Source of the DNA: Promicromonospora citrea
GTDB taxonomy: Bacteria > Actinomycetota > Actinomycetes > Actinomycetales > Cellulomonadaceae
Direction: 5' to 3'
NCBI RefSeq assembly: GCF_013004695.1
Contig: NZ_JABEMG010000024.1
Location: 1-44,854, forward strand
Length of the DNA: 44,854 nt
Shown here in pieces: positions 39,207-43,766 of this stretch (positions are counted from its first letter, which is position 1; each line of letters begins with the position of its first letter). The notes beneath the pieces were generated by a model, which saw nothing but the letters and a program-made list of their open reading frames with translations, searched no databases and was not told the origin of the DNA. Both the position numbers and the translations under genes were made by a program.

Positions 39207-40088
39207 GTGACGTTCAACGAGGGCGGTCAGTTCGAGGGCGGGCGCGTCCGCAAGGGCGGTCGGCGCGGCGCGGTCGGCGCCGGGGTCGGCGGCGGAGCGA
39301 CGATCATCATCGCGCTGCTGTACATGGTGCTGACCGGCAACAGCCCCGCCGACCTCCTCGGCGGCACCACCGACGGGGGTGGCGGCGAGCAGGGTTACGT
39401 CGGCGACTGCACCGCGGAGCAGGCCAACACCGACCCCGAGTGCCGGCTGAACGGCGCCGTCCAGTCGCTCGACGCGTACTGGGCCGCCACGCTGCCCGAG
39501 CAGGGCGGCGTCGAGTACCAGCTGCCCGAGGTCGTGAGCTTCACGCAGGCCGTGAGCACGGGCTGCGGCAACGCGACGTCGGCCACCGGGCCGTTCTACT
39601 GCCCCGCCGACACGACCGTCTACGAGGACCTCTCGTTCTACGACCAGCTCTCGAGCCAGTTCGGCGCCGAGGGCGGCCCGCTGGCCGAGATGTACGTGAC
39701 GGCGCACGAGTTCGGCCACCACATCGAGAACCAGCTCGGCCTGTTCGAGCGGGCCGACCGCTCGGGCACCGGGCCGGAGTCCGACTCGGTGCGCATCGAG
39801 CTCATGGCCGACTGCCTCGCCGGCATGTGGGCGGGCAACGCCGCGACGACCGAGGACCCGGACACCGGCGTGACCTTCCTCGAGCCGATCAGCCAGGACG
39901 AGCTCGAGCAGGCGCTGTCCGCCGCGGCCGCCGTCGGCGACGACAACATCCAGCGCCGCTCGGGCGGCGACGTGAACCCCGAGGCGTTCTCCCACGGGTC
40001 CAGCGAGCAGCGCGTGCGCTGGTTCACCATCGGCTACGAGGGCGGCACCATCCAGGACTGCAACGCGCTGGACGCCTCCCGCCTGTGA
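39207..40088 (+). CDS. Neutral zinc metallopeptidase (YpfJ-like), membrane-anchored
   Basis: 293 aa. The N-terminal F-x-G-G-R-V pattern (GGQFEGGRVRKGG), a hydrophobic anchor at about 29-44 (GGATIIIALLYMVLTG) and a Gly-rich hinge are typical of the putative neutral zinc metallopeptidase family (YpfJ, PF04228). The catalytic HEFGHHIE has zinc-binding His167 and His171 with Glu168; a downstream Glu in RIELMADCLAG is the likely third ligand. Cysteine pairs (CTAEQ, DPECRL, STGCG, YCPAD) suggest disulfides outside the cell. Leaderless behind TAGGTT. Four bases after its stop begins the -10 of the threonine leader peptide. Confidence 0.92.
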   Translation: MTFNEGGQFEGGRVRKGGRRGAVGAGVGGGATIIIALLYMVLTGNSPADLLGGTTDGGGGEQGYVGDCTAEQANTDPECRLNGAVQSLDAYWAATLPEQGGVEYQLPEVVSFTQAVSTGCGNATSATGPFYCPADTTVYEDLSFYDQLSSQFGAEGGPLAEMYVTAHEFGHHIENQLGLFERADRSGTGPESDSVRIELMADCLAGMWAGNAATTEDPDTGVTFLEPISQDELEQALSAAAAVGDDNIQRRSGGDVNPEAFSHGSSEQRVRWFTIGYEGGTIQDCNALDASRL

Positions 40089-40091
40089 GGC

Positions 40092-40097
40092 TACGGT
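40092..40097 (+). promoter_or_regulatory. -10 (TACGGT) of the threonine leader/ThrRS-like transcript
   Basis: TACGGT lies seven bases before the ATG of the 16-residue leader peptide and four bases after the metallopeptidase stop codon, so this unit probably has its own leaderless promoter. Confidence 0.6.
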
Positions 40098-40104
40098 GAG
40101 CGGC

Positions 40105-40155
40105 ATGCACCTCAGCGCACGCACGACGACGCCGGACCCCTCCGGCGCGCGCTGA
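40105..40155 (+). CDS. Threonine leader peptide (MHLSARTTTPDPSGAR)
   Basis: Sixteen codons including three consecutive threonine codons (ACG ACG ACG, 40123-40131), ending in TGA just before a strong hairpin and about 95 bases upstream of a threonyl-tRNA synthetase-like gene. The peptide is leaderless behind TACGGT. Ribosome stalling at the Thr codons when charged tRNA-Thr is low would expose the antiterminator segment described in the next entry. It is too small for ordinary gene finding and is probably unannotated. Confidence 0.75.
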   Translation: MHLSARTTTPDPSGAR

Positions 40156-40196
40156 CCTGCACCCACGCATCAGGCCCCGGAGCTCGCTCCGGGGCC
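40132..40196 (+). promoter_or_regulatory. Transcription attenuator with alternative hairpins
   Basis: Four segments fit classical attenuation. Segment 1 CCGGA (40132-40136) pairs with segment 2 TCCGG (40141-40145). Segment 3 (40173-40183) pairs with segment 4 (40186-40196) in an 11-bp GC terminator with a two-base loop. CTCCGG (40140-40145) can instead pair with CCGGAG (40177-40182), blocking the terminator. Segment 1 directly follows the Thr codons, so a stalled ribosome would mask it and favour the antiterminator. The terminator has only a weak T tail (TTCGTCGT). Confidence 0.68.
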
Positions 40197-40225
40197 TTCG
40201 TCGTGCGACGGCGGGCGCGGGGCGG

Positions 40226-40243
40226 CTCCTTCCACCGAAGGAG
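40226..40243 (+). promoter_or_regulatory. Hairpin covering the ThrRS-like ribosome binding site
   Basis: CTCCTTC (40226-40232) and GAAGGAG (40237-40243) form a 7-bp stem with a CACC loop that hides the Shine-Dalgarno sequence seven bases before ATG 40250. It may add translational control. Confidence 0.55.
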
Positions 40244-40249
40244 AGCACC

Positions 40250-41515
40250 ATGAACGCGTCCCTCGACCACCGTGACCTCGGTCGCGACCTACGGATCTTC
40301 GACACCAGCCCGCTGGTCGGCCCCGGTCTGCCGCTGTGGCTGCCCGCGGGCGCCGCCGTCCGGTACGAGCTCGAGCGGTACGCGCGCGAGGTCGCCCTGC
40401 GCACCGGGTGCGAACCGGTGTACTCGCCGGTGCTCGGCAAGCGCTCGCTGTTCGAGCGGTCCGGGCACTGGGCCAAGTTCGCCGACGACATGTTCCCGCC
40501 GATGAGCGCGGGCCCCGACGATCCCGACCCGCTCGTGCTGCGCCCCGCCAACTGCCCGCACCACGCGCAGATCTACGCGTCCGAGCCGCGCTCCTACCGC
40601 GACCTGCCGGTCCGGTACGCCGAGCTCGCGCCGATGTTCCGGGCCGAGCGCTCCGGCGTGCTGACCGGCCTGAGCCGGGTACGGCAGATCAACCTCGACG
40701 ACGCCCACGTGTTCTGCCGCCCCGACCAGGTCGAGGCCGAGGTGCGCACCGCGCTCGGCGCTGTCCTGGAGGTGCTCGGCACCCTCGGCATCGAGGTGGC
40801 CTACCTGCGCCTGTCGGGCCGTGACGACTCCGACCGGTGGCTCGGCGAGCCCGCGCGGTGGGCGGCGGCCCAGGAAGCCCTGCGCGCCGTCCTCGACGAC
40901 GTCGCGGGCGACCTGCCCTGGCGTGCCGAGCCCGGCGAGGCGGCGTTCTACGGGCCCAAGGTCGACGTCCAGGTGCTCGACGCGCGCGGGCACGAGGAGA
41001 CCCTCGCGACGGTGCAGCTCGACTTCAACCAGCCCGAGCGGTTCGACCTCACCTACGTCGCGGCGTCGGGGGAGCGGGAGCGGGTGGTGATGATCCACCG
41101 CGGCACCGTCGGGGCGATGGAGCGGATGGTCGCGTTCCTGCTCGAGCGGTACGCCGGACGCCTGCCGTTCTGGCTCGCGCCCGTCCAGCTGTGCCTGCTC
41201 CCCGTGGGCGACGGCGCCCCCGCCGACGCCGCCGACGCGCTGGCCGCCGACCTGCGGGCGCAGGGCGTGCGGGTGCGCGTCGAGCGCGAGGGCTCGCTCG
41301 GCAACCGGATCCGGCGGGCACGGGGGCGGCGGGACGCCCTGCTCGGCGTCCTCGGGGACCGGGAGGTCGCGGCGGGTGAGGTCGCGATCACCGACCCGGC
41401 GTCCGGCGAGCGGCACGCCGTCCCGCTCGCGGACCTTCCGCCGCTCCTGGCCGAGGCCGCCGGCTCCCGGGCGCTGCGCCCTGACCTCGCTACCTCCGCC
41501 CGCCCGGCCCCGTGA
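40250..41515 (+). CDS. Threonyl-tRNA synthetase, short form lacking TGS and editing domains
   Basis: 421 aa against about 640-680 for standard ThrRS. It starts at the class II catalytic core: DLRIFDTSPLVGPGLPLWLPAGA, motif 2 region MFRAERSGVLTGLSRVRQINLDDAHVFC, and motif 3 near GTVGAMERMVAFLLE. Zinc ligands Cys102, His153 and His283 match those that recognise threonine. An anticodon-binding domain follows from WLAPVQLCLLPVGDGAPADAADALAADLRAQGVRVRVER. The N-terminal TGS and serine-editing domains are absent, so it may not clear Ser-tRNA-Thr. A second, full ThrRS probably exists elsewhere. Roles could be back-up charging or resistance to a ThrRS inhibitor. Controlled by the Thr leader and attenuator. 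Confidence 0.88.
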   Translation: MNASLDHRDLGRDLRIFDTSPLVGPGLPLWLPAGAAVRYELERYAREVALRTGCEPVYSPVLGKRSLFERSGHWAKFADDMFPPMSAGPDDPDPLVLRPANCPHHAQIYASEPRSYRDLPVRYAELAPMFRAERSGVLTGLSRVRQINLDDAHVFCRPDQVEAEVRTALGAVLEVLGTLGIEVAYLRLSGRDDSDRWLGEPARWAAAQEALRAVLDDVAGDLPWRAEPGEAAFYGPKVDVQVLDARGHEETLATVQLDFNQPERFDLTYVAASGERERVVMIHRGTVGAMERMVAFLLERYAGRLPFWLAPVQLCLLPVGDGAPADAADALAADLRAQGVRVRVEREGSLGNRIRRARGRRDALLGVLGDREVAAGEVAITDPASGERHAVPLADLPPLLAEAAGSRALRPDLATSARPAP

Positions 41516-41520
41516 GTGGG

Positions 41521-42201
41521 TCAGCGGGTCCAGGTGCGGCGGTCGCGGGCCGCGAGGTGGACGATCTCCAGCTCGCGGTCGGTGAGCATCGGGCGCCGGG
41601 ACGCCAGCCACGGCGTCAGCTCGTCGTCCGTGAGCACCTCGACGTCCTCGCGCGGGCCCTCGACCCGCACGTGGTCGGTCCGGACGAAGACGACCAGCGC
41701 GCGCACGGTGACCGGCACCCGCGTCGCGCCGGCCAGGACCTCCTGGACCCGCCGGCCGCCGTCGCGCGCCGCGTCGGCGGTCACGTCACCGACCGGGCGG
41801 TACACGGCCTGGATCGTGTACACGCCGGCCGGCCCCAGCACCACCTGGTCGAGGTCGATCGGGCCGCCGCCCTGGCCCGCCCGCGTGGGCACGTCCGTGT
41901 GGACGGAGTGCAGCACGCGCCAGGACGGGTGCTTGGCCGTCAGGTCCCACAGCTCGTTCGCGACGCCCCGCACCCCCGCGATGCGGCGGCTCAGCGCGCG
42001 GTGGCGTGGGTCGTACCCGCCGCGCAGCCTGCCGCGCACGAGCGAGGCGAGGTGCGCACGCCGGTAGGCGCGGCGCTGGGCGAGCAGGTGCATGGCGGGC
42101 CGGTTCCGGGTCAGGTCGTCGGCGCGGGACAGGCGCCCGGCGCGCAGGTTCGGCAGCGCGTCGGAGACGGTGACGGGGACGCTCGACGTCTCAATGCCCA
42201 T
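41521..42201 (-). CDS. NERD-like domain protein
   Basis: 226 aa. A basic helical N-terminus (AQRRAYRRAHLASLVRGRLRGGY) is followed by a NERD-like fold: HPSWRVLHSVHTDVPTRAGQGGGPIDLDQVVLGPAGVYTIQAVYRPVGDV, where DLDQVVLGPAGVY parallels DIDHLLIGPGGVF of the NERD gene at 33259. The usual E/D/N-x-K is replaced by IQAVY, so it may be catalytically inactive. C-terminal WLASRRPMLTDRELEIVHLAARDRRTW resembles the tail after NERD domains. ATG 42201 lies six bases after TACGGT on the minus strand. It converges with the ThrRS-like gene (stops five bases apart). Confidence 0.7.
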   Translation of the reverse strand: MGIETSSVPVTVSDALPNLRAGRLSRADDLTRNRPAMHLLAQRRAYRRAHLASLVRGRLRGGYDPRHRALSRRIAGVRGVANELWDLTAKHPSWRVLHSVHTDVPTRAGQGGGPIDLDQVVLGPAGVYTIQAVYRPVGDVTADAARDGGRRVQEVLAGATRVPVTVRALVVFVRTDHVRVEGPREDVEVLTDDELTPWLASRRPMLTDRELEIVHLAARDRRTWTR

Positions 42202-42359: not shown

Positions 42360-42761
42360 ATGAGTCCCACCGAACCGGCGCGCGACACGACGGCGTGCGA
42401 CGCGACCCGCACCGCGCTCGACGACTTCCTCCGGCACCGGCTGCCACCCGGCCGCCGTCGCCGGATGGAGGACCACGTCGTGCGCTGCGTGGCGTGCATG
42501 CGGGACTTCATCGACGTGCGGGAGTCGGTCTGGACGGCGGTCGCGTCACGCGTGCGGCCTGCCCTGCGCCTCGTCGCGGACGCCGGGGAACGCACGCCGG
42601 GCCAGGAGCACCACCAGCAGGGCGGCGCCGACCAGCACGGCCCCGGCGTACGGCACGGCGCCGCGGCCCGCGCCGTCGAGCACGAGGGCGCCGAGAGCCG
42701 CCCCGCCACCGATGCCGATGTTGGCGCTGGCGTTCACGAGCGCGCCGACGACGTCGGGTGA
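42360..42761 (+). CDS. Small zinc-finger (zf-HC2-like) protein, 3' part antisense to an MFS gene
   Basis: 133 aa as read. Residues about 17-60 (TALDDFLRHRLPPGRRRRMEDHVVRCVACMRDFIDVRESVW) carry the H-x3-C-x2-C of zf-HC2/anti-sigma zinc domains. After about residue 65 the composition becomes Gln/His/Gly-rich and overlaps the end of the antisense MFS gene by 216 bases, so the natural protein may end earlier through a frameshift, or the tail may be unstructured. ATG 42360 has a GAGGTG close by (short spacing). No sigma factor adjoins it. Confidence 0.5.
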   Translation: MSPTEPARDTTACDATRTALDDFLRHRLPPGRRRRMEDHVVRCVACMRDFIDVRESVWTAVASRVRPALRLVADAGERTPGQEHHQQGGADQHGPGVRHGAAARAVEHEGAESRPATDADVGAGVHERADDVG

Positions 42762-43766
42762 CGCGCCCCGGGTGCGGATGGCCGCCGTCTGGAACACGGC
42801 GGCGACGGCGCCGAAACCGATGCTCCAGACCGCTGCCGCGACGAGCGTGCCCACCGTCCCGGGGTACGCGACGCCGAGCGCCAGGACGCCGCCGCCCACC
42901 ACGACGAGGGTCACGACCGTGGTCTGGCGCAGCCGCGCGTCGAGCCGGGCGGCGGCGTACGCGGCGCCCAGCAGCCCGAGCCCGCCGATCACCAGCAGGG
43001 CGGGCCCGACCGCGACGGCGGCGAGCCCCGCGCCCAGCAGCAGCACCGAGACATAGGTGTAGACGGTGTAGTGGCCGAGGTAGACCAGGGCGTTCGCCGA
43101 GGTGGCGCCGGCGAGCGCGGACCGGCGCGCGCCGCGGGCGCCGTCGTCCGGCGGTGCCCCGCCGCCCGGCACCGGGGGCAGCAGCAGCGCGGTGAGCACG
43201 CCGGACAGGGCACACGCACCGGCGAGCACGACGAAGGCGGTGCGCCAGCCCACGGCGGTCCCGAGCGAGGTGGACAGCGGGACGCCGAGCACGAACCCGG
43301 CCGACGCCCCGAGGGTGACCAGCGCGAGCGCGCGCCCGGCGAGATGCGGCCGCACCAGGCGCGAGGCGTACCCGATGCTCACCGAGAAGAACACCGCGTG
43401 CGACGCCCCGCCCAGCGCCCGGGCGACCGCGACGACGGCGAACGTCGGCGCGAGCGCCACGAGGACGTTGCTCAGGGTGTACACGGTGAGCGACCCGAGG
43501 AGCACGGCCTTGCGGGGCAGGCGCCGGGTCGCGGTCGTGAGCGGCACGGCCAGCACGGCGACCATGACCGCGTAGGCCGTGACCAGCAGCCCCGCCGTCG
43601 ACTCGGCGACGGACAGGTCGGCGCTGATCACGGGGAGCAGGCCGACGGGGACGAGCTCCGTCGTGATCGCCACGAACGTCGCGAGGCCCAGGGCGAGCAG
43701 CCCGCCCGCCGCGTCCCGCACGGCGCCGGGCTGCCAGGGGGCGGGGTGGTGGCCGGGTGCGGTCAT
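42546..43766 (-). CDS. MFS transporter, sugar-efflux/arabinose-efflux (AraJ-like, DHA1)
   Basis: 406 aa, about 12 membrane helices. LGLATFVAITTELVPVGLLPVISADLSVAESTAGLLVTAYAVMVAVLAVPLTTATRRLPRKAVLL matches AraJ/PbuE-type exporters (TEL/P motif, then motif A as TTATRRLPRK). ARALGGASHAVFFSVSIGYASRLVRP and GASAGFVLGVPLSTSLGTAVGWRTAFVVLA follow. It probably exports sugars, nucleosides or drugs. ATG 43766 begins 13 bases from a strong hairpin that separates it from the GH43-like gene upstream. Its 3' end overlaps the antisense zinc-finger ORF. Confidence 0.9.
   Translation of the reverse strand: MTAPGHHPAPWQPGAVRDAAGGLLALGLATFVAITTELVPVGLLPVISADLSVAESTAGLLVTAYAVMVAVLAVPLTTATRRLPRKAVLLGSLTVYTLSNVLVALAPTFAVVAVARALGGASHAVFFSVSIGYASRLVRPHLAGRALALVTLGASAGFVLGVPLSTSLGTAVGWRTAFVVLAGACALSGVLTALLLPPVPGGGAPPDDGARGARRSALAGATSANALVYLGHYTVYTYVSVLLLGAGLAAVAVGPALLVIGGLGLLGAAYAAARLDARLRQTTVVTLVVVGGGVLALGVAYPGTVGTLVAAAVWSIGFGAVAAVFQTAAIRTRGASPDVVGALVNASANIGIGGGAALGALVLDGAGRGAVPYAGAVLVGAALLVVLLARRAFPGVRDEAQGRPHA

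Follow-up and report, generated by a model that had tools for sequence, protein, structure and literature searches.

The window analysed here is the whole 44,854-nt stretch of the Promicromonospora citrea contig NZ_JABEMG010000024.1, and the features described below lie on its forward strand unless stated otherwise. A gene at positions 40250–41515 encodes a short accessory threonyl-tRNA synthetase (ThrRS; 421 aa) made up of the catalytic and anticodon-binding domains only, and its start is preceded by a Shine-Dalgarno-like GAAGGAG (40237–40243) that we recognised by eye. Directly upstream is the gene of a KPN_02809-type zinc metallopeptidase (39207–40088), and an MFS transporter gene (42546–43766, reverse strand) is found near the short ThrRS gene. 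As originally predicted, a 16-codon open reading frame with three consecutive Thr codons stands before the ThrRS gene. This leader peptide ORF, MHLSARTTTPDPSGAR (40105–40155), runs from the ATG at 40105 to the stop codon TGA at 40153–40155, and its putative regulatory codons ACG ACG ACG occupy 40123–40131. Just 3 nt past the stop codon of the metallopeptidase gene is the hexamer TACGGT (40092–40097; TAnnnT), the −10 box of a proposed leaderless promoter. Its spacing to the leader ATG is 7 nt, and this arrangement fits a leaderless transcript. A consensus scan of 39900–41700 found neither a sigma-70 promoter nor a terminator.

Four RNA segments can be delineated in and behind the leader ORF. 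Segment 1, CGCCGGA (40130–40136), begins within the third Thr codon and is the 5′ arm of a 1:2 hairpin, in which it pairs with TCCGGCG (40141–40147). Segment 2, CTCCGGCG (40140–40147), has either segment 1 or segment 3 as its partner. Segment 3, AGGCCCCGGAG (40172–40182), serves both as the 5′ arm of the terminator and as the 3′ arm of the antiterminator; in the latter pairing, CTCCGG (40140–40145) meets CCGGAG (40177–40182) and flanking pairs are added. Segment 4, CTCCGGGGCCT (40187–40197), is the 3′ arm of the terminator. In addition, an outer stem that the original prediction does not mention closes over the 1:2 hairpin, its 5′ arm (40106–40118) lying at the start of the leader ORF and its 3′ arm (40149–40161) spanning the leader stop codon. 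The terminator-like GC-rich hairpin (A40172–T40197; 11 bp with a 4-nt loop) begins 16 nt past the leader stop and is followed by a weak T tract, TCGTCGT, in which T is only scattered and forms no real U run. The original prediction had placed a terminator hairpin at 40173–40196 and had proposed that 1:2 plus 3:4 and 2:3 are mutually exclusive. The hairpin delineated here includes those positions, and the exclusive pairing is upheld both by the complementarity of segment 2 to segments 1 and 3 and by the folding predictions described below. We also observed that CGCACGACGA (40120–40129, across the Thr codons) and TCGTCGTGCG (40198–40207, directly behind the terminator) are reverse complements of each other; this complementarity may be due to chance, because the tails differ in other loci.

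The 100 nt from position 40106 were predicted to fold at −56.1 kcal/mol, compared with −37.2 ± 3.3 kcal/mol for shuffled sequences (z = −5.68; 0/200 as low). No Rfam family reached its gathering score anywhere in the window, and the window contained no tRNA genes. The T-box covariance model was not matched, and a search of 40050–40300 at E ≤ 10 returned four weak matches, all to other families. A T-box reading of the leader was rejected on the basis of this Rfam search.

With regard to the downstream gene, the short ThrRS passed the TIGR00418 cut-off, and both the class II core and the anticodon domain were present; its fold family is evident from sequence. Specifically, PF00587 and PF03129 were its only domains and the N-terminal TGS and editing (SAD) domains were absent, noting that TGS also scored below threshold in the genome's other ThrRS. 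The attenuator occupies the place where the TGS and SAD domains would be coded. The zinc ligands Cys/His/His were found in 66/66 short loci (duplicates included), their positions being placed by what we take to be the E. coli numbering. By sequence, the closest solved relative was 1nyq, presumably the S. aureus ThrRS structure. The short enzyme probably aminoacylates tRNA-Thr.

The short ThrRS is an accessory gene. The host genome (4.96 Mb) encodes a second ThrRS elsewhere, which is 41% identical to the short one and has SAD. Thr is abundant in a stretch (ATTTTETTTGTQ) close to the N-terminus of this second ThrRS (ORF L213:255–2528, reverse strand), and a similar stretch occurs in a relative (L098). 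The 61 short sequences formed one clade (support 0.876) in a tree of 134 ThrRSs built with FastTree. The short gene was present in 12/13 genomes of the host genus, in 1/12 others of the family, and in 0/14 of the order. The leader agrees with the assignment of this genus to Promicromonospora, as four of its genomes (G002, G009, G010 and G012) share an identical leader stretch with the named Promicromonospora loci L002, L009, L003 and L001, respectively.

To compare the leader across genomes, we used 55 ortholog loci, 42 of which (L001–L041 and L079; 49–83% identical) came from the 80 listed of a total of 302 loci, while 13 were the best of a second set (L081–L093). The remainder of the 80 loci were ThrRSs of 38–45% identity and were left out. 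Five leader stretches were identical to others, leaving 50 distinct ones, of which alignment A1 took 40. Three Thr codons in a row were found in 54 of the 55 loci, and the 55th (L025) has two (TTP) in the same layout. The TTTP ORF began 5–8 nt past a TAnnnT box in all 54 TTT loci, the start codon with such a box being preferred where several were possible; in the orthologs as in P. citrea, this fits the leaderless layout proposed at first. When the start codon was instead chosen by −10 spacing alone, it was in frame with the Thr codons in 49/49 loci with a single candidate; the 50th locus has two candidates. The distance from the start codon to the Thr codons was 15, 18, 21 or 24 nt, whereas the distance to the terminator was spread over all three frames (18, 14 and 18 loci), from which we conclude that the leader is kept as an ORF. 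The C-terminal half of the peptide is probably free of selection as a peptide, since the frame of segment 2 varies. The leader stop codon ended 12–32 nt before the terminator in 50/50 distinct loci, and the Thr codons of the leaders were mostly ACG (133), followed by ACC (13), ACT (2) and ACA (1).

No leaderless TTT ORF was found upstream of 35 other ThrRS loci (0/35; up to 300 nt). Each of these genes was taken to begin at its most distant in-frame start codon, so that some genuine upstream sequence may have been missed, and three of the loci offered only 50–72 nt to search. A wider search (up to 900 nt beginning 600 nt before the match) was likewise negative (0/36), with at least one locus having no sequence there.

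Beyond the close orthologs, we searched with R1, a covariance model of the leader, in the host genome, in 396 genomes drawn evenly from the phylum, and in genus g33, which we presume to be Streptomyces since the S. lividans leader peptide occurs in it. The phylum draw contained at least 12 short ThrRS genes, and all 12 that were found have a poly-Thr leader (11 recognised by the model and the twelfth by eye). Distant phylum members do not have the Pro that follows the Thr run, and carry TTTG (L126), TTTTTG (L131), TTTA (L130) or TTTTG (L150). Examined by eye, L126 has segment 1 as GACGGGT, segment 2 as ACCCGTC and segment 3 as CGGGT, that is, the same logic in other letters. In g33, 103/199 genomes matched the model at E ≤ 1e-4. 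The best 30 matches were all true poly-Thr leaders before a short ThrRS (30/30), and among six weak matches, L210 and L212 were true while L207, L208, L209 and L211 had no leader or ThrRS. With the best 30 and these six weak matches inspected, the figure of 103/199 is therefore an upper bound.

R1 had one real match in the host genome (75.2 bits; next best 21.1 bits). Its 30 matches in the 396 phylum genomes comprised 11 that precede a short ThrRS and 19 with no ThrRS in the stretch taken. Nine of these 19 were inspected (L127–L129 and L132–L137) and were terminators without a leader or coding-looking DNA; one of them, L133, has a small ORF with TTTP but neither a ThrRS nor a terminator within the match. 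A wider regulon was thus not found with R1 in the host genome and the 396 phylum genomes, a search that leaders of other sequence would escape. On the matches inspected with this model, the idea of other genes under the same element was rejected.

To evaluate how a ribosome on the leader could affect the RNA, we masked a ribosome over each codon, folded the downstream RNA up to the middle of the terminator, and scored 2:3 as formed at P ≥ 0.5. With an 11-nt mask, 2:3 was predicted in 50/50, 50/50 and 48/50 loci for stalls at positions 1–3 of the Thr run. It was also predicted in 50/50 loci one codon before the run, and in at most 13/50 loci either two or more codons before the run or from one codon after it. 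With a 9-nt mask, the permissive positions were the Thr run plus one codon beyond it (50, 50, 49 and 46 of 50; 19/50 one codon before), and with a 13-nt mask they were the Thr run plus the two codons preceding it (32, 49, 50, 49 and 40 of 50). Depending on the mask, a stall one codon before or after the run is therefore predicted to permit 2:3 as well, and the centre of the permissive window remains on the Thr codons with both the 9- and 13-nt masks. No locus (0/50) formed 2:3 by this criterion when the ribosome stood at the stop codon or when there was none. The pre-terminator window, which extends from segment 2 to segment 3, folded with 2:3 in 50/50 distinct loci, and the median energies were −12.2 kcal/mol for 1:2, −19.0 kcal/mol for the pre-terminator window, and −22.95 kcal/mol for the terminator. 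In the finished RNA at equilibrium, the terminator was favoured (P ≥ 0.5) in 49/50, 49/50 and 48/49 loci with a ribosome on Thr codons 1–3. Because the finished terminator wins at equilibrium despite the stalled ribosome, the switch must be kinetic and act during transcription, as classical attenuators do as a rule.

Support from co-variation differed between the stems. We exchanged arms between divergent loci in 20,000 permutations, and for the terminator (3:4) none of the swapped sets was as good as the native one (0/20,000). The own arms of the outer stem also paired better than swapped ones, with 1, 0 and 0 of 20,000 permutations as good at clustering levels 0.7, 0.8 and 0.9, and 72/20,000 in another clustering with 7 representatives; level 0.6 left only two representatives and was uninformative (10,038/20,000). 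Support for 2:3 was modest (505 and 134 of 20,000) because CCGG pairs with itself. The swap test says nothing on 1:2 (4,559 and 4,071 of 20,000), since that hairpin is nearly invariant. The RNAalifold consensus recovered 3:4 and part of 1:2 only, with a covariation term of −0.2, in an alignment that splits part of the terminator arm. Thus, the expectation that orthologous loci would retain both the Thr codons and compensatory changes in the hairpins was borne out, strongly for the codons, the terminator and the outer stem, and modestly for 2:3.

Our comparative results point, with high confidence, to a classical ribosome-mediated transcription attenuator that would sense charged tRNA-Thr and control the accessory ThrRS. 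By sequence, the leader appears to supply the run of cognate codons that classical attenuators require, and in the folding models the pairings are mutually exclusive, with the regulatory codons placed such that a ribosome on them would mask segment 1. We propose that transcription begins at the leader ATG or immediately beside it and that a ribosome loads at once on the leaderless 5′ end. When Thr-tRNA is ample, the ribosome would reach the stop codon, segment 2 would be masked or back in 1:2 with the outer stem, and 3:4 would form, so that transcription ends before the ThrRS gene. When Thr-tRNA is scarce, the ribosome would stall at a Thr codon and mask segment 1; segment 2 would then capture segment 3 ahead of the synthesis of segment 4, and the polymerase would read into the short ThrRS gene. 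If the leader is not translated, termination would be the default. We infer that the outer stem engages the 5′ end of this leaderless RNA, which should leave termination as the default state until a ribosome has loaded. Both termination at the 3:4 hairpin and induction upon scarcity of Thr-tRNA are predicted from sequence, and the proposed sensing of Thr-tRNA implies that the gene would also be induced in the presence of a ThrRS inhibitor. In the most likely scenario, the short ThrRS is a spare enzyme without editing that stays off until the supply of Thr-tRNA falls short.

It is possible, though we consider it unlikely, that the leader responds less to Thr-tRNA than to slowed translation in general, as caused by antibiotics or stress, with the gene belonging to a WblC/WhiB7-type response and the attenuator acting as a second filter. 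S. coelicolor thrS2 is listed among the WblC-activated genes in the accessible part of one report, which places the WblC box GAAAWY 3 nt upstream of the −35 element (PMC7157823), and SCO3778 is given as a ThrRS of S. coelicolor in the available text of another (PMC10771440). It is likely that thrS2 is the short gene. Among our loci, GAAA occurred at −44 to −48 from the leader start codon, approximately the expected place of a WblC box, in 18/31 g33 loci (the 30 best matches, L177–L206, plus L212) and in 6/50 others, and was seldom found elsewhere in the 150 nt upstream of that codon. GAAAWY within 80 nt was found in 10/31 g33 loci against 1.8 expected in simulations (maximum 6), but in the non-g33 loci its frequency was not more than chance (4/50 against 1.1 expected; maximum 5). 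Moreover, a WblC-type box is absent from the window, and no locus of the host genus has GAAA at that place. The codons of one amino acid, exactly where stalls are predicted to matter, also speak for amino-acid specificity. Sensing of Thr-tRNA by the attenuator thus remains our preferred reading, and in some members of the family, transcription into the attenuator may start from a promoter of the translation-stress response.

Another explanation, which we regard as quite improbable, is that control is translational or Rho-dependent, such that stalling on the leader frees the ribosome site of ThrRS or blocks Rho and the hairpin is no true terminator. This would be consistent with the weak T tract and the negative terminator scan at our locus, and the S. 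lividans authors likewise found no U-rich stretch at thrL in the part of their report available (PMC8079986). Nonetheless, co-variation supports the 3:4 stem better than any other helix, T-rich tails occur at several loci (e.g., ATTTTTCATG and TTTTCGTTGC), and the hairpin ends ~40 nt before the Shine-Dalgarno-like site of ThrRS, all of which favour transcription attenuation.

Similarly doubtful is the view that the short ThrRS confers self-resistance to a ThrRS inhibitor, in the manner of ObaO and obafluorin, and that the attenuator is the inducible switch of this resistant copy. Induction of a second ThrRS when Thr-tRNA is lost would be in keeping with self-resistance, and S. coelicolor offers a parallel in TrpRS1, which is resistant to indolmycin. 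In ObaO, Ser replaces Gly463, the resistance position, and a change at 489 conferred no resistance, according to the accessible part of the ObaO report (PMC11252418). In our data, however, the Gly463 position is Gly in 66/66 short loci and the ObaO-type Ser is absent, and residue 489 is Gln in 58/66 short loci but also in 50/73 other ThrRSs, so that it does not separate them. Judged by the known residues, inhibitor resistance of the short ThrRS is not supported. Finally, a chance origin is virtually excluded: GC-rich hairpins are common in DNA of 74% G+C and a Thr-rich ORF may arise easily there, a small TTT ORF appearing in 0.5–2.4% of simulated upstream regions (Markov-1 simulations of the 300 nt upstream of the short ThrRS gene, 10/2000; two relatives, 17/2000 and 48/2000), but the leader is conserved in 54/55 loci of many genera and 12/12 of the phylum sample and was found in 0/35 controls, a conservation that by these simulations is far above the chance rate and already refutes this reading.

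A device of regulated fidelity loss can also be imagined, although we deem it rather unlikely as a whole: a widespread emergency device of Actinobacteria, in which an editing-less ThrRS is silenced by a leaderless Thr attenuator and, in part of the family, also placed under a WblC/WhiB7-type promoter. Fast threonylation at lower accuracy would then be reserved for failure of Thr-tRNA during translation stress. The co-occurrence of a Thr attenuator and a WblC-type box raises the question of layered control. With the attenuator reading, the short paralog gains a likely role as a backup when Thr-tRNA fails, and the leader would be a ready reporter for ThrRS inhibition.

An attenuator of this kind was published in 2021 for thrL-thrS of S. 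lividans TK24 (SLIV_19412/SLIV_19410), which likewise has a leaderless Thr leader before a ThrRS gene; in the available text, the thrL peptide MKRVRPFLETTPGFVPAR has two Thr codons, is leaderless by RNA-seq, and is accompanied by termination that the authors call unclear (PMC8079986). The attenuator is therefore not new in kind. We found MKRVRPFLETTPGFVPAR letter for letter before the short ThrRS of a g33 genome (G559, locus L212), and thus S. lividans thrL-thrS very probably belongs to the same family. Unlike the present work, the accessible part of the S. lividans report covers one species, with no four-segment model and no cross-species comparison, and leaves the kind of ThrRS unstated. What is new here is the breadth, the structure, the restriction to the short paralog, and the WblC-type box in part of the family, and a single brief report is thereby extended to a regulatory family that spans the phylum, has a defined structure and is tied to one ThrRS paralog. 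We found no comparative or structural account of the Thr leader family in the open-licence literature, and one may exist elsewhere.

Among known systems, the T-box of Gram-positive thrS and thrZ genes also senses tRNA-Thr charging and controls ThrRS genes, but it binds the tRNA directly and has no leader peptide. Attenuators of Actinobacteria were described for trp, trpS, leuS and ilvB by Seliverstov in 2005; that study saw no conserved RNA structure ahead of threonine operons and, as far as the accessible text goes, does not mention thrS (PMC1262725). The Thr leader family would thus fill a gap left by that survey. It resembles the Streptomyces trpS and leuS attenuators in having a leader with cognate codons, an antiterminator and a terminator before a synthetase gene, and differs in that those sense Trp or Leu, on the evidence of the part available (PMC1262725). 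Similarly, the available description of the M. tuberculosis ilvB1 attenuator shows an actinobacterial upstream ORF with regulatory codons and mutually exclusive terminator and antiterminator structures, although that system responds to branched-chain amino acids, controls a biosynthetic operon, and has a 166-nt leader (PMC13236596).
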